Shown: in pieces, positions 9,431 through 17,748 of the stretch | Position numbering within the stretch: position 1 is the first letter of the stretch | Layout: each line of letters starts with the position of its first letter | Assembly: GCA_002727195.1 (NCBI GenBank) | Contig: PBWH01000003.1 | Coordinates: 135,007 to 199,006, forward strand | Reading direction: 5' to 3' | Length of the DNA stretch: 64,000 nt | Source: Gemmatimonadota bacterium | Lineage (GTDB): Bacteria > Latescibacterota > UBA2968 | Program-made: the position numbers and the translations under genes | Notes under the pieces: model-generated | Seen by the model: only the letters and a program-made list of their open reading frames with translations | The model's database searches: none | What the model was told of the DNA's origin: nothing

Positions 9431-11926
9431 ATGATGCCAGAATCGGATTTCCAGACAGTCGACCTGAAGCCAGTATACAATGCGAATACATCCAACATCG
9501 CGTCGGGCGACGGATATGTCTGGCCATACCACGGCGATGATCCGGAAAGCACGGCGATTGCGAATCTACCTCAGGGCGACGAGCGCTTCTGGGGTATCCC
9601 GTTCCAGTTGGCTGAATACGATAGAGACGGAGAGGACGCTGTATTCGTCGAGGTGCGGAATGGCGGTGCTGAGTCGGTGACCATACCGGTCGGTGCGAAG
9701 GCGAAGCGCATCTTGATTGCGCACGTTTGTGCCTCTGTCGACGGGTCCGGAGCGACGCTGGATGGGGCCGCTGAAGAGTTGGGTGAAGGGCGTGTTGTTG
9801 TGGGTGGGCAGACCCATACGTTTCCGCTTCGGAGACGGTTCGAGGTCCACGACGTGGCCGTCCCGTGGGGCCACCATCCGTTCCTGTGCCGGAACTGCCG
9901 TGAATTCACTTCCGTTCCGCTCGATGATAAGACGGTGCCCTGGGGACGTGCACAGGTCGGTACGGAAAAGGCGAGCAACGATACGGGTGGATGGTGGATC
10001 TACCAGTGGGTCAACCCGAATCCAGACGTGCCGATCGAGTCCCTGGAATACGTGGCCCTAAGCGATACCCCGCTCCTCATCGGGGCGATCACGCTGTCGA
10101 ATGAAGACGAGAATCCGCTTGCCTGGCCGCCGCGCGAAGATGTCGCCGTCTCTGTCGACGAGGATAAGGACTCACCGATCTCCGTTGAGGTGGAGCGTGG
10201 TGTCCTGGCGCGTCAAGACCGTCTCCACGTTCCGAATGAAGACTATCTCACCACCGACGAGGTGGGATGGGGCGTCGGCGGTCACGAGGTCAGGCCGGAC
10301 GGCTACCTCGAGATCCACGCGTCGCCTAAGGCCAAGATCAACGTGACGGTCGGCGAAGATCGGTCGGCGAGTTTCCGGTGGGGCGATGTACTTTCCGGTA
10401 AGTCCGCAGCGGACGGGGGCGTGCGGATGGAGATGGTCTCCCCAGAAGGCAAGCAGTGGTTGCACGTTCACGTCACTGATGCGGATACCGGTGAGCAGGT
10501 GGGCTGTCGCGTTCACTTCCGGTCGACCCAGGGCGCTTACTTCGCCCCTCATGGGCATCAAGCCGACGTGAACATCGCCTGGTTCGAGGATCTGGGCGGT
10601 GACTGTAAGGTCAGGGGAACCCCGTATGCCTACATCGATGGGAAGTGCCAGATCGAGCTTCCTATCGGACCGGTCTACGTGGAGGTCGTTCGTGGGTTCG
10701 AGTACACGCCGATTCGCGAACTCGTGTACATCAAACCCGGACAACGTGACCTGTCGCTCAAGATCCGACGGGCGATGGATATGAAGCAACGTGGCTACTA
10801 CTCGGGGGACACACACGTGCATTTCCTGACGGCGCAGTCTAGCCACCTTGAAGCGGCTGCGGAGGATCTGAACGTGACGAACCTCCTAGTCAGCCAGTGG
10901 GGCCGTCTCTTCACGAGTTGGGAAGAGTTCACGGGAGGTCTGGCGCCGACGAGCAGTGAGGATTACAAGATCTGGGTTAGCCAGGAGAACCGTCAGCACG
11001 TCCTCGGGCACATCAGCTTGCTCGGCCTGAAGGATATGGTCGCACCCATATGCTCCGGTGGTCCTCAAGAGGATTGGGTCGGTGGTGAGATCCAGGTGCT
11101 GATGGCCGATTGGGCAGAAGAATGCCGTCGGCAGGGCGGTCTGGTAATTATGCCGCATATGCCGGTTCCTGACTTCGAGAACGCCGCCAACATCACTCTG
11201 GGCCACGCCGATGGAGCGGAGATGTGCTGGGTCTGGGAGGGGGAGACGATCGGGCAGGGTGAGAAGGGCTACTATCGCTGGCTGAACGCCGGCAATAAAC
11301 TGCCCATTGTTGGCGGAACGGACAAGATGTCTAACGGGCGTGTGTTGGGAGGGTCCCGCACGTATGCGAAGCTGCAGGATGATGAGGCGTTTACTTTCGA
11401 GAGCTGGGCGCAGGCCATCCGGAACGGGAACACCTTCGCGAGTACCGGTGCGATGATTGACCTCCGTGTCGAGGGAGCCAACATGGGTGACGAGATTCAC
11501 CTGCCCGGTAATGGAGGAAAGGTCGAAGTCGTTGCGACCGCCGAGAGCATTTGGCCACTGACCGCTGTAGAGTTGATCGTGAATGGCGAACGTTCCGCGC
11601 GCGAATACGCCGATGGGGACAAGCGACAGGTCGCCGTGCGGTTCGAACTGGATGTGAGCAAGCCGTGCTGGATCGCTGCCCGGACGTGGGGCGAGTATGC
11701 GACCGATGCCGGTCCCGTGATGGCACATTCCTCACCCGTATATATCTCGTGCGGCGGTCGACGTCCCTTCGTCGAGTCCGATGGCGAATACCTCATGACC
11801 CATATGGAAGGCGGCATTGCCTGGGCCGAAGAGATCGGCGTCTTCAAGGACGAACGGGTCCGCTCCCGCCTGATCGCCCTCTTCCACGAAGCCATCGCCG
11901 AAATCCAACGCCGCGCCATGAGATAG
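9431..11926 (+). CDS. CehA/McbA-like PHP-fold metallohydrolase, large
   Basis: An 831-residue protein beginning at ATG 9431 (or the adjacent ATG 9434) behind GGGAGG. There is no signal peptide. The first 440 residues form beta-rich domains, including PWGHHPFLCRNCREF with two cysteines. A PHP-type domain starts near 455 with GYYSGDTHVHFLTAQSSHLE, where the HxH pair is the expected metal site. It continues with MPHMPVPDF and VGGTDKMSNGR (candidate His and Asp ligands). This pattern fits the CehA/McbA metallohydrolases, named after carbaryl and methyl-carbamate hydrolases, but most members are uncharacterised and the natural substrate here is unknown. It stands alone in its direction, flanked by repeats downstream. 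Confidence 0.7.
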   Translation: MMPESDFQTVDLKPVYNANTSNIASGDGYVWPYHGDDPESTAIANLPQGDERFWGIPFQLAEYDRDGEDAVFVEVRNGGAESVTIPVGAKAKRILIAHVCASVDGSGATLDGAAEELGEGRVVVGGQTHTFPLRRRFEVHDVAVPWGHHPFLCRNCREFTSVPLDDKTVPWGRAQVGTEKASNDTGGWWIYQWVNPNPDVPIESLEYVALSDTPLLIGAITLSNEDENPLAWPPREDVAVSVDEDKDSPISVEVERGVLARQDRLHVPNEDYLTTDEVGWGVGGHEVRPDGYLEIHASPKAKINVTVGEDRSASFRWGDVLSGKSAADGGVRMEMVSPEGKQWLHVHVTDADTGEQVGCRVHFRSTQGAYFAPHGHQADVNIAWFEDLGGDCKVRGTPYAYIDGKCQIELPIGPVYVEVVRGFEYTPIRELVYIKPGQRDLSLKIRRAMDMKQRGYYSGDTHVHFLTAQSSHLEAAAEDLNVTNLLVSQWGRLFTSWEEFTGGLAPTSSEDYKIWVSQENRQHVLGHISLLGLKDMVAPICSGGPQEDWVGGEIQVLMADWAEECRRQGGLVIMPHMPVPDFENAANITLGHADGAEMCWVWEGETIGQGEKGYYRWLNAGNKLPIVGGTDKMSNGRVLGGSRTYAKLQDDEAFTFESWAQAIRNGNTFASTGAMIDLRVEGANMGDEIHLPGNGGKVEVVATAESIWPLTAVELIVNGERSAREYADGDKRQVAVRFELDVSKPCWIAARTWGEYATDAGPVMAHSSPVYISCGGRRPFVESDGEYLMTHMEGGIAWAEEIGVFKDERVRSRLIALFHEAIAEIQRRAMR

Positions 11927-11931
11927 CCTCG

Positions 11932-11961
11932 TTCCCAGGGGGACCCTACCCTGGGAACGCA
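11932..11961. repeat. Perfect 11-bp hairpin, GTTCCCAGG...CCTGGGAAC type
   Basis: CGTTCCCAGGG and CCCTGGGAACG form a perfect 11-bp stem around GGACCCTA, six bases after the preceding stop codon. There is no T-run, so it is not a classical terminator. Sequences of the form CGTTCCCAnnn...nnnTGGGAACG are a common dispersed palindrome in many bacterial genomes. It may still protect or end the transcript of the gene before it. Confidence 0.6.
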
Positions 11962-11996
11962 GAAGCAAGACCTACGTATGCCCCCTGTGCCTCTTT

Positions 11997-12052
11997 CCTC
12001 TCCCGCGTGCGGGAGAGGACGGCTCACCTCTGGTGAGCCCGGTGAGGGCGTG
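11997..12052. repeat. Dispersed double-hairpin repeat, copy 4
   Basis: Stem 1 CCTCTCCCGCGTGCGGGAGAGG, stem 2 GGCTCACCTCTGGTGAGCC, tail CGGTGAGGGCGTG. Relative to the copy at 6047-6100, both arms of stem 2 have changed together (GATTCGCC/GGCGAATC to GGCTCACC/GGTGAGCC), a compensatory pattern that indicates selection or mobility as a folded unit. Confidence 0.75.
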
Positions 12053-12169
12053 TAGCAGCGTACCGCTTGATTTCCTTCCGTAGACCACACCAGCACACCT
12101 CTTGGCTGTCATATTGGCACTTCATTGTCAGTGCATGACGCGTTCTAGAGCCATACTGGCGGATCTAGT

Positions 12170-12237
12170 CTATCGGGCCTGATAGGCTAATAAATCCAGT
12201 ATTCGCATAATACGTTGTTTCTATGTTGGTTACGTAA
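12170..12237. promoter_or_regulatory. Cluster of palindromes upstream of the sigma-54 promoter
   Basis: Three inverted repeats lie 15-80 bases upstream of the -24 element: CTATCGGGCCTGATAG (12170-12185, one mismatched pair), GTATTCGCATAATAC (12199-12213, perfect arms) and TTACGTAA (12230-12237, perfect). Sites of this kind bind the enhancer-binding activators that sigma-54 RNA polymerase requires. They are close to the promoter for classical enhancers, and none has been matched to a known activator. Confidence 0.4.
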
Positions 12238-12250
12238 GCGGTTCTGTGTT

Positions 12251-12266
12251 TGGCACCCTCATTGCA
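12251..12266 (+). promoter_or_regulatory. Sigma-54 (-24/-12) promoter of the chaperone operon
   Basis: TGGCACCCTCATTGCA matches the sigma-54 consensus TGGCAC-N5-TTGCA exactly. The invariant GG (12252-12253) and GC (12264-12265) are ten bases apart. It lies 57 bases before the hsp20 start codon on the correct strand and is preceded by palindromes. No good sigma-32 or sigma-70 promoter or CIRCE element was noticed in the same gap. Confidence 0.75.
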
Positions 12267-12322
12267 AAACGAGTGCGCGGCTACACAAACGAACGAGAAA
12301 CCAACCAACGGAGGAATGAACG

Positions 12323-12745
12323 ATGACACTCGTTAAGTGGAACCCCGCCGCACTCGACCGTGAGATCAACCACCTCGTCAAGTCCTTCTGGGGTGAGCCC
12401 AGGGCTCTGGGTGGCGCCTGGAACCCGAAGGTAGACATCGCGGAACTGGAAGACCGATATGAGGTGCACGCGGAGCTTCCCGGTCTGACCAGGGAAGACG
12501 TCAGCGTGACGCTCGAAGATGGTGTTCTGACGATCTCAGGAGAGAAGAAGCGCACAAGTGAGACCAGCGATGACGCCTATCGCCGGACCGAGCGTGTCTA
12601 CGGGAAGTTCAGCCGATCCTTCAACGTCGGTGACAGAGTTGCCGCTGACAAGATTTCGGCAGGCTATAAGGATGGTGTCCTGACCGTGGCGCTCCCGAAG
12701 GCCGAGGAGGTTAAGCCCAAGGCGATCGAAGTCGAGGTCTCGTAG
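12323..12745 (+). CDS. hsp20: Small heat-shock protein, Hsp20/alpha-crystallin family
   Basis: A 140-residue ATP-independent holdase that binds unfolding proteins in the cytoplasm. ATG 12323 follows GGAGG at good spacing. The alpha-crystallin domain spans about 33-125 and includes the typical PKVDIAELEDRYEVHAELPG opening, the loop GLTREDVSVTLEDGVLTISG, and the closing YKDGVLTVALPK. The C-terminal IxI/V motif appears as IEVEV. First gene of the operon hsp20-cbpA-clpB, giving a holdase, a co-chaperone and a disaggregase together. Confidence 0.95.
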   Translation: MTLVKWNPAALDREINHLVKSFWGEPRALGGAWNPKVDIAELEDRYEVHAELPGLTREDVSVTLEDGVLTISGEKKRTSETSDDAYRRTERVYGKFSRSFNVGDRVAADKISAGYKDGVLTVALPKAEEVKPKAIEVEVS

Positions 12746-12839: not shown

Positions 12840-13767
12840 ATGGAGTTTACGGACTATTACGAAACCCTCGGCGTGAGCCGAACGGCTTCAGAGGAAGACA
12901 TCCAGAAGGCCTACCGGAAGCTGGCCCGTCAGTTCCATCCCGATGTGAACAAGTCGGATGGTGCCGAGGATCGGTTCAAGGAGGTCGGAGAAGCCTACGA
13001 GGTCCTGAAGGATCCTGAGAAGCGCGCCAAATACGATGAGTATGGTGCTGCCTGGAAGCAGATGGAACAGAACAGCGGCGGCTTCCCCGGGTTTGACTTC
13101 AACGGAGTTGGTCCGGCTGGCTTCGACAGTTTCTTCGACATCCTGGAGCATATGTTCGGCCAGGGGGGCAACGGAAAGTTCACCGGCGGATTTCGGGCAT
13201 ACGGAGGCAGTCCGTTCACGTCGGGAAGCCGAGTCAATATCCCGATACGCGGTGCCGACTATGAAGCCTCGATTCGCCTGATGCTTGAAGAAGCTGCTGC
13301 AGGCGGCACTCGGATGCTGACGATTCCTACACCTGATGGTCAAGAACGACGGCTAAGGGTAAACATCCCGAGAGGCGTGACCCCCGGGCAGCGTATCCGG
13401 CTGGCGGGACAGGGCGGCGCTGGGGATAGGGGATCCGGAGATCTCTACCTGGTCGCTGACATCGTGCCGCACCCACAGTACGTGCTCAGTGGCCACGATC
13501 TCCACACGCAGCTTCGAGTTCCGGCCTGGATGGCGGCACTCGGCGGGAAGACCGAGCTGAAAACGCTGACCGGAAAGGTCAAGGTGTCTGTTGCCAAGGG
13601 GACGGAGTCGGGTCGCCAGATCAGGCTGAAGGGCCAGGGCTACCCGAAGGGCGAGGGAGCGGGCGACCTGTATGCGGAAATCCTGATCGAGGTGCCCGAT
13701 CGCTTGTCTGCCGAACAGCGAGACGCTTTCGAAACACTCAAATCAATCGACCTGGAGACCGTGCACA

Positions 13768-13781
<14 letters not shown>
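12840..13781 (+). CDS. cbpA: CbpA-type DnaJ co-chaperone
   Basis: A 313-residue J-domain protein that would stimulate DnaK. ATG 12840 is preferred over the in-frame GTG 12828 because GGGGAAG lies directly before it and [14 protein letters not shown] is the canonical J-domain start. The J domain (1-70) contains the essential HPD in [21 protein letters not shown] Gly/Phe-rich linker follows (about 80-135). Two C-terminal beta domains carry [20 protein letters not shown] and [16 protein letters not shown]. There is no cysteine-rich zinc finger, so it is the CbpA class and not DnaJ proper. No dnaK is in the window. Its end overlaps clpB by 14 bases, implying coupled translation. Confidence 0.93.
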
Positions 13782-16392
<2,611 letters not shown>

Positions 16393-16418: not shown

Positions 16419-16450
16419 AAAGGCCCTCCTTCGGGAGGGCCTTTCTTATT
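16419..16450 (+). terminator. Rho-independent terminator after clpB
   Basis: AAAGGCCCTCC and GGAGGGCCTTT make a perfect 11-bp stem closed by a very stable TTCG tetraloop (16430-16433), followed by CTTATT. It ends the chaperone operon 27 bases after the clpB stop. Confidence 0.93.
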
Positions 16451-16530: not shown

Positions 16531-17748
16531 GTGAATCGAGCTAAAATCGAAGGCACCCTCGGGCCAGCGAGTGCAAACGCTGAAACTTTGTCCGCCACGG
16601 TGGATGCCGGCCTGGATGTGGTTCGCCTGAACTTTTCGCATTGGGACCCACGAGGATCACGCTTAGGCGATCGAGCTGATTCGAGAGCTTTCCGGCCGTG
16701 CGGATCGGCATGTGGTGATCACGCAGGACCTTGCGGTTCCCAAAATCCGGGTCGGGACCCTGGAGCAGTCGTTGCCGCTGGAGGAGGGCCAGAAGATCAC
16801 GTTGGAGTCCGGCCTCGAAGATCCGGGAGGCGGGGCGATTCCGACGACCTACGCGAAACTCGCCCGAGACCTGTCAAGCGGGGACAACGTCTTGCTCGAC
16901 GACGGAAAGATAGAGCTCCGGGTGCGGGAGTGGACTGCGTCGCGATGTCCTTCAAACGCGCGCCTGCGGATGTGGGACTGGTCAAACGGGAAGCCCTGAA
17001 CTGGGGGGCTGAGGTGCCAGTGATTTCGAAGCTCGAACGGAGCGAGGCCGTTGCAGCGCTCGATGAGATCCTGGAGGTAGCCGATGGCGTGATGGTGGCG
17101 CGAGGCGACCTTGGCGTCGAGATGGCTCCCGAGCAGGTTCCTGTGATTCAGAAACGGATCATCTCACGTGCGAATGCGGCCGGTGTTTTCGTTATCACGG
17201 CGACCCAGATGCTGGAGTCCATGACCGACAGCCCCCGACCGGCTCGTGCCGTCCTGCTGTCCGGAGAAACGTCCGTGGGGCGCTATCCAGTGGGGACGGT
17301 TCAGATGATATCCCGCATCATCTCCGAAGCTGAGGCGGCGGTCCACGCCCAAACGCTGACGGAGTGGAGGAGTCGGGGGACGGGATCATTCCCAGATGCG
17401 ATCGGGTACGCCACCACCATTGCTGCCCAGGACGTATCCGCTAGGGCCATCGTTGCGTTCATCCAGTCAGGGGCTACTGCGCTTCTGATTTCCAAACGAC
17501 GACCTCAGACCCCGATCGTCGCCTTTACGCTGGAACCGAAGATTGCCCGGCAGTTGAGTCTCTGCTGGGGGACAGAGCCCCACTTGATCGAACGGGCTGA
17601 GGGGACGGATGAGATGATCCGGGAAATCGAGTCACGGTTGCTCGCCGTCCGCCGGGTTCACGTTGGCGAGAACCTCGTCATCCTGTCTGGAGCTCCCATT
17701 ACGGCTTGGGCGGAAACAAACCTTCTCAAGCTGCATCGCGTCGGGTAA
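16531..17748 (+). pseudogene. pyk: Pyruvate kinase pseudogene
   Basis: Homology to pyruvate kinase is clear at the start (AKIEGTLGPAS, LDVVRLNFSH), middle (VPVISKLERSEA, VADGVMVARGDLGVEMAPEQ) and end (LSGETSVGRYPVG, TNLLKLHRVG). The gene is dead by several independent lesions. An extra T near 16641 shifts the frame, and in the corrected frame TAG 16664-16666 interrupts. About 50 codons covering the B-domain exit are missing at 16930. About 15 codons (the usual EVSDVANAILDGTDA stretch) are missing at 17250. The catalytic GPKIR motif reads VPKIR. An in-frame path from GTG 16531 (AGGAG upstream) still exists because the shifts compensate, but much of its N-terminal half is nonsense. Its TAA overlaps the tamA ATG, so translation into tamA may be why that end stays open. 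Confidence 0.9.

Follow-up and report, generated by a model that had tools for sequence, protein, structure and literature searches.

Predicted sigma-54 control of an hsp20-cbpA-clpB chaperone operon in Latescibacterota, with a proposed enhancer and a candidate activator

The hsp20-cbpA-clpB operon of a bacterium of the phylum Latescibacterota raises the question of how its disaggregation chaperones are switched on. The first-pass annotation of this DNA had placed a sigma-54 promoter before hsp20 and supposed a stress-linked AAA+ activator. Here we surveyed the window (the whole stretch of 64 kb that was analysed), the home genome from which it comes (G000; 5.42 Mb, 38 contigs, 91.7% complete and 7.1% contaminated) and its relatives, making a set of 60 genomes with the home genome included, 51 of which have Hsp20. 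The explanation as a whole, to which we give a probability of roughly 0.6, is that the operon would be transcribed by sigma-54 RNA polymerase, that a Fis-type activator would act from paired upstream palindromes, and that the operon would belong to a wider chaperone regulon.

Promoter site and operon structure

The string noted in the first-pass annotation, TGGCAC-N5-TTGCA with GG and GC ten bases apart, is present exactly, with GG at 12252-12253 and GC at 12264-12265 (Table 1). It is separated by 56 bases from the ATG of hsp20; the transcription start is predicted at about 12277, and GGAGG precedes the gene at 12310-12314. The earlier gene names were borne out by family matches, that of clpB lying above its cut-off, and Pfam gave no zinc-finger family match in the cbpA-type DnaJ. 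All three genes run in the same direction, with a gap of 94 bases between hsp20 and cbpA, and the start of clpB overlaps the end of cbpA. The hsp20 regions of 20 relatives, several of which are cut by contig ends, have a clpB match alongside hsp20 in 11 cases and a cbpA match in only one (L075); the usual pairing is hsp20 with clpB, and these regions do not show the arrangement of three genes to be common. Further along the window, a pyruvate-kinase-like frame (16531-17748) seems to shift, and an overlapping ORF (16712-16999) carries part of it, perhaps through a sequencing error or because the gene is broken.

Table 1. Features of the chaperone locus in the window (positions are those of the window)
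Feature	Position	Strand	Basis and remarks
UAS1 TGTCATATTGGCA, perfect TGYCA-N3-TGRCA, proposed activator site	12107..12119		Centre at about -164; conserved before hsp20 and dnaK
UAS2 AGCCATACTGGCG, weaker copy, proposed second activator site	12149..12161		2 mismatches; 42 bp downstream of UAS1; centre at about -122
Palindromes of the first-pass annotation, CTATC-N6-GATAG (12170-12185) and GTATT-N5-AATAC (12199-12213)	12170..12213		Exact sequence; second not conserved
Predicted -24/-12 sigma-54 promoter TGGCACCCTCATTGCA	12251..12266	+	Exact TGGCAC-N5-TTGCW match, conserved
hsp20 (small heat-shock protein, Hsp20/alpha-crystallin)	12323..12745	+	PF00011, E=1.4e-24, alignment
cbpA-type dnaJ (J domain and DnaJ_C)	12840..13781	+	PF00226, PF01556
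clpB disaggregase	13768..16392	+	TIGR03346, 1331.5 bits, cut-off 1232.1
Terminator-like hairpin 3' of clpB, likely operon end	16419..16444	+	Consensus match only

The rarity of the -24/-12 string was considered as evidence and dropped. The promoter is the sole exact match of TGGCAC-N5-TTGCW in the window, against 0.04 expected, and five exact matches were found across the home genome; when one mismatch was permitted genome-wide, the reversed control pattern outnumbered the real one (120/135 against 41/32). Since the genome-wide number shows no excess, the weight of the site lies in its position and conservation. The gene rpoN, for which the first-pass annotation had proposed to look, is present in the home genome as one match (PF04552, E=1.4e-60) in an open frame of 512 aa.

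Exact sites were also noticed before other genes. One of these (TGGCACAAGCATTGCA, G000:C34:220610-220625, locus L019) precedes a gene for an RpoS/RpoD-like sigma factor by about 78 bp, counted to its likely start (ATG 1594), an arrangement which recalls the RpoN-RpoS cascade of Borrelia. By eye, others (L015, L016 and L018) precede an apparent secreted protein, a sugar-nucleotide epimerase and a TlpA-type thioredoxin; two of these three loci are without the palindrome described below, and L016 has only a distant one-mismatch copy.

Conservation of the site and of an upstream palindrome

The hsp20 sample was made of the 30 best loci, one per genome, and 26 upstreams were counted after leaving out the home locus and three with at most 150 usable bases; one locus (L061) is a run of N. 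Sites were scored out of 11 with GG and GC required, and the threshold was set at 10/11 or more. Such a site was found in 21 of the 26 upstreams, against none in antisense and a mean of 0.19 in dinucleotide shuffles, and these counts are not independent because 9 of the 26 (10 of the 30 loci) share one genus. The sites are spread over families f1, f2, f4, f5 and f8, and their distance to the start of hsp20, or to its match, is in most cases 72 to 118 bases. Among the 30 loci, those without a site are L062, L070, L071 and L060, the last having only about 100 upstream bases.

The same was seen for dnaK, for which the 30 best loci were taken among the 50 genomes with a match: 18 of the 30 upstreams have a site at the threshold (antisense 0; shuffles mean 0.35), and the 12 scoring below 10 include the f4 loci L225 (partly N), L226 and L228. 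Each of three separately placed clpB genes (L176, L185, L186), which were met through the enhancer search and not through a clpB survey, has a site of 11/11. The claim of sigma-54 control with a stress-linked AAA+ activator is well supported comparatively by these hsp20 and dnaK counts, and sigma-54 RNA polymerase would be expected to transcribe hsp20-cbpA-clpB from the site in Table 1. That the -24/-12 match is due to chance and hsp20 uses another promoter is very improbable: the five exact matches in the genome are indeed no excess over chance, but a site is conserved at a similar distance among the relatives with none in antisense, it recurs at dnaK and clpB, and a consensus scan of 11900-12322 for sigma-70-type hexamers found no sigma-70-like site.

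Some dnaK loci have features of their own. In L201, L206 and similar loci, a small FmdB-like (zinc ribbon) gene precedes dnaK and the sigma-54 site stands before that gene, and in L219 (G021) the end of an apparent sigma-70-family sigma factor gene is directly upstream of dnaK.

The first-pass annotation had counted three palindromes upstream of hsp20. CTATC-N6-GATAG and GTATT-N5-AATAC do exist as sequence, and the suggestion that the latter might recur at stress genes was not borne out: outside the window site, it was found in only 1 of 446 fetched loci (L079:1224). It was ruled out as the activator site by this non-recurrence. A different palindrome, TGYCA-N3-TGRCA, was found conserved by side-by-side reading of the hsp20 upstreams, its centre being 50-171 bases before the -24 element. 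In the window it is represented by UAS1, which lies just outside the coordinates of the first-pass annotation and is the sole exact copy there, against 0.14 expected. The rarity of a single palindrome was dropped as evidence in its turn, the home genome having 11 exact copies with no excess over the 13 of the reversed control. UAS1 is the only one of the 11 whose fetched locus of 2.2-3 kb also has a sigma-54 site scoring 10/11 or better.

The palindrome is often paired. Of the 25 hsp20 loci having a sigma-54 site, 17 show the relaxed motif TGNCA-N3-TGNCA (at most one mismatch) at least twice, with spacings mostly of about 30, 39-44 or 62 bp and some others, which would fit binding on the same face of the DNA; the home hsp20 locus has one copy only at this threshold. 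As the palindrome was defined on hsp20, dnaK provides an out-of-sample test: 20 of the 30 dnaK upstreams have a palindrome with at most one mismatch (1.76 in shuffles), and 18 of the 30 have it together with a sigma-54 site (0.02 in shuffles). The home dnaK is weaker, with a site of 9/11 and two one-mismatch palindromes.

All 60 genomes were also searched for a strict pair, that is two strict copies 15-45 bases apart. There are 14 such places in 9 of the 60 genomes. The reversed control was empty in 59 of the 60; in G056, at a repeat-like stretch, it gave 6 matches and the strict pair only 1. Six of the 14 places are before hsp20, two before dnaK (L180, L182) and three in the clpB region, and three are without a clear chaperone target (L175, L177, L183). 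The three of the clpB region (L176, L185, L186) have the pair between convergent genes, at a distance of 1.1-1.35 kb upstream of clpB's sigma-54 site, and these enhancers may have stayed in place while a gene was inserted. The palindromes there are downstream of an apparent CehA/McbA-type gene, like the neighbour of hsp20 in the window (9431-11926), and in L176 and L185 a third, one-mismatch copy lies between the two strict ones.

What is observed is the conservation of palindromes upstream of the promoters, and their binding by an activator is our proposal. A dimeric Fis-type enhancer-binding protein would sit on the two TGYCA-N3-TGRCA palindromes, loop over to the promoter and open it by ATP hydrolysis. 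By its conservation in relatives, this arrangement would put the operon in a wider sigma-54 chaperone regulon with dnaK and, in some relatives, a separately placed clpB.

HrcA, CIRCE and the candidate activator

The first-pass annotation had contrasted this locus with HrcA/CIRCE control, and the contrast holds for the operon without being exclusive in the genome. HrcA is found in 52 of the 60 genomes, the home genome included. The CIRCE pattern (TTAGCACTC-N9-GAGTGCTAA) has its best match in 11927-12322 with 9 mismatches of 18, so the home hsp20 operon is without it, and CIRCE with at most 4 mismatches occurs in 0 of 26 hsp20 and 0 of 30 dnaK upstreams. Both main groES copies of the home genome have CIRCE (0 mismatches in one, 1 in the other), and a further, divergent Cpn10 match at C20:140406 stays outside the groES counts. 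Outside f4, 23 of 24 groES loci have CIRCE (at most 2 mismatches) and 0 of 24 a sigma-54 site scoring 10/11 or better; in f4 the numbers are 0 of 6 and 6 of 6, respectively. In each of the 12 loci of second groES copies, CIRCE is present within 4 mismatches, and one of them (L296) also has a sigma-54 match of 10/11. From these counts, groES appears to be controlled by HrcA/CIRCE, and hsp20-clpB and dnaK by sigma-54, in most of the families examined, with groES of f4 apparently under sigma-54.

Sigma-54 promoters fire only with an ATP-driven activator, and therefore the disaggregation machinery (Hsp20, ClpB, DnaK) would stay off until a sensor engages. The search for an AAA+ activator elsewhere, which the first-pass annotation had suggested, gave five full-length PF00158 proteins in the home genome plus broken or partial ones. 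Two activator genes (G000:C20:55642-56092 and G000:C24:21764-22212) look interrupted, with split PF00158 matches and a stop codon in one part each. Of the intact proteins, L003 (G000:C32) has the domains of a bacterial enhancer-binding protein, a Sigma54_activat domain (PF00158, E=4e-72) and a Fis-type HTH (PF02954, E=6.4e-14). In a tree of 86 activator proteins from 9 genomes, its clade has local support of 0.97 and one member in each of 8 genomes, covering families f1, f2, f6 and f8, and no other home activator has a clade above 0.9 that reaches these families. A profile of its C-terminal part gave an L003-type match in 53 of the 60 genomes and in 19 of the 19 of good quality, with a single match in 46.

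Several features are shared by the L003 type. The motif RTLYRK is found in the recognition helix of 49 of the 50 fetched loci (five genes being represented twice), and the last one ends at a contig edge; it occurs in other activator types too (L418, L420), and a Bacteroidetes relative (L409) has RSLYRK. The linker is long, with the conserved stretch S.RDLLYWAILEVA.DIKELK in f1. Pfam gave no Response_reg receiver match in L003 or L231, and in L329 a weak one of 18.7 bits against a cut-off of 30.2. The loop of the members displayed reads GAFTGA in f5, f6, f8 and f9, while those of f1-f4 have GAFTDA or GAYTDA. The GAFTDA form is workable, because NorR G266D, the change that gives GAFTDA, is reported still to activate and to escape repression by the regulatory domain (PMC2941729).

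The L003-type AAA+/Fis protein, which is phylum-wide and has a long conserved linker, an RTLYRK helix and no detected receiver in the home genome, is the likeliest candidate for the activator of the chaperone promoters. Its signal, by analogy with PspA-PspF, would probably be misfolded protein, acting through release from a holding chaperone or partner, which is speculative. Choosing the activator by autoregulation or promoter linkage was dropped: the palindrome (at most one mismatch) is in none of the loci around the five intact activator genes of the home genome.

It is also conceivable, though rather unlikely, that sigma-54 control is real and another regulator sits on the palindromes, such as L004 (NtrX-like), L005 (GAF-type) or the product of the CRP/FNR-family gene next to L003. 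There are four other intact activators in the home genome, and a wider group around L005 spans f1, f2, f6 and f8 at the weak support of 0.76; yet above 0.9 no other home activator has a clade joining f2 with f6/f8, the families that have the palindrome in common. The L003 gene is flanked by the CRP/FNR-like gene and htrA, and a CRP/FNR-like gene adjoins the L003 type in G000, G001, G003 and G056 (Pfam-checked in G000). Against a binder of this family, CRP/FNR proteins bind half-sites of another kind at another spacing (TGTGA-N6-TCACA, TTGAT-N4-ATCAA), and sigma-54 promoters would need an AAA+ activator anyway. The palindrome also stands before hsp20 in phyla whose tested genomes gave no full-length L003-type match, a point that favours another regulator and is taken up below.

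Around L003 the neighbours also bear on the signal. That the regulon answers envelope or secretion stress, stationary phase or redox, and is not a strict heat-shock circuit, we consider unlikely, a shade more so than a different binder. It would agree with htrA being beside L003 in G000, G001 and G003, and with lptE-like genes adjoining the Bacteroidota relatives of L003, one of which (L440) is clustered with miaB-, lptE-, secG- and groES-groEL-like genes (all named by eye). The targets kept in many relatives are, however, the cytosolic disaggregation chaperones Hsp20, ClpB and DnaK. Upstream of the htrA next to L003, no sigma-54 match of at least 9/11 was found in the locus; by eye, an ECF-like sigma promoter (GGGAACC and a downstream element) was noticed there (L003:2640-2774).

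To place the L003-type activator in a wider setting, L003-type matches were searched in the 26 genomes behind the hsp20 loci of other phyla, and were full-length in 7 and split in 4 more. Their labels are Bacteroidetes, Ignavibacteriae, Melioribacteraceae, Flammeovirgaceae, Fodinibius, Calditrichota, Gemmatimonadetes and Zixibacteria, and a similar linker is found in the relatives from Bacteroidota, Ignavibacteria, Calditrichota, Gemmatimonadetes and Zixibacteria. Several from Bacteroidota and Ignavibacteria are only about 385-390 residues long, which leaves no room for a receiver. The genomes of Verrucomicrobia, Planctomycetes, Hydrogenedentota, Proteobacteria, Chloroflexus, Acidobacteria and Nitrospirae (one to four each) gave no L003 matches or HTH-sized ones only, and a Calditrichaceae genome (L099) gave no L003-type match, though a palindrome and a promoter-like site are there. 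Palindromes are present in the hsp20 upstreams of Zixibacteria (L164) and Gemmatimonadetes (L127). Before hsp20 of non-FCB phyla the palindrome was found in 10 of 55 upstreams against 1.94 in shuffles, and in FCB in 8 of 19, a difference which is not significant (Fisher p=0.06), and this contrast was set aside as not decisive proof of the activator. Because the palindrome exceeds shuffles in non-FCB phyla and the FCB excess stays at p=0.06, the link between palindrome and L003 type is one that we infer.

A broader picture, which we offer tentatively and with more doubt than belief, is that a dedicated heat-shock activator ancestral to the FCB superphylum drives chaperone genes through sigma-54, working from paired TGYCA-N3-TGRCA in place of sigma-32. 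It may have lost its receiver or never had one, and may be held off at the linker by a chaperone or partner, with groES switching, inside the phylum, between this control (f4) and HrcA/CIRCE (most other families examined).

As a separate observation, hsp20 upstreams of Verrucomicrobiota (L105 to L167) have sites of at least 9 in 15 of 17 (antisense 0; shuffles 1.12), many of them ending in AGCT, and sigma-54-type hsp20 promoters look common there too.

Comparison with known systems

If the proposal is true, the heat-shock response of these bacteria would differ from sigma-32 or repressor-based systems in staying off as long as no sensor has engaged, and non-standard heat-shock control may be common across this bacterial branch. 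The split between HrcA (groES) and sigma-54 (hsp20-clpB, dnaK), with groES of f4 reversed, offers a natural series for the study of regulatory rewiring. Since an enhancer sequence and a candidate with relatives in Bacteroidota are at hand, the question of the stress sensor can be tested in a laboratory strain.

Sigma-54 control of chaperones is not without precedent (PMC9723704, PMC12316311). In Flavobacterium psychrophilum, mapped starts with a -24/-12 motif (SM4) are reported at groESL, lon, dnaK, grpE-dnaJ, htpG and clpB, and three PF00158 proteins are given, none of which is assigned as the chaperone activator in the available part of that paper (PMC9723704). The present case differs in its phylum, Latescibacterota, in having hsp20, cbpA and clpB in one operon, and in groES going with HrcA/CIRCE in most families; moreover, we put forward an enhancer sequence together with a candidate for the activator. 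A survey of 2025 on Bacteroidota and Planctomycetota reports predicted sigma-54 promoters at GroEL, GroES, IbpA (COG0071), GrpE, DnaJ, DnaK and COG0542 (PMC12316311). Latescibacterota have no mention in its main text, and for this chaperone set the portion available gives no enhancer, unlike the TGYCA-N3-TGRCA proposed here. In E. coli, a sigma-54 promoter is reported for ibpB (Kuczynska-Wisnik 2001, cited in PMC4316790), where, going by that citation, sigma-54 is added to the sigma-32 control of the operon, whereas for hsp20 of the window sigma-54 is the only promoter type recognised in scans that covered sigma-54 and sigma-70-type sites. The available parts of the studies on Desulfovibrio (PMC4641369) and Geobacter (PMC2725144, PMC7962754) hold no clear precedent for a sigma-54 chaperone promoter, the chaperones of Geobacter having changed without a recognisable RpoN site.

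With respect to the activator, PspF, NorR and L003 are alike in being Fis-type AAA+ activators, NorR acting from three sites upstream. Like PspF, the L003 relatives seen in Bacteroidota and Ignavibacteria begin almost at the AAA+ domain (L437, and by length the others). L003 itself is unlike PspF and NorR in falling far below the equivalog cut-offs (268.6 bits against 443.55 for the PspF equivalog TIGR02974), in its long linker and in the GAFTDA/GAYTDA loop of f1-f4. HrcA/CIRCE is a known system in the same genome, placed at both main groES copies, with no CIRCE at the hsp20 upstream.

As sigma-54 chaperone promoters are mapped in Flavobacterium, predicted in Bacteroidota and Planctomycetota and reported in E. 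coli, the kind itself is already known. Within our searches of open-licence literature, where no paper among those listed joined Latescibacterota, sigma-54 and heat shock, what appears new is the occurrence in Latescibacterota, the gene order hsp20-cbpA-clpB, the enhancer with its candidate activator, and the way in which control is divided with HrcA.
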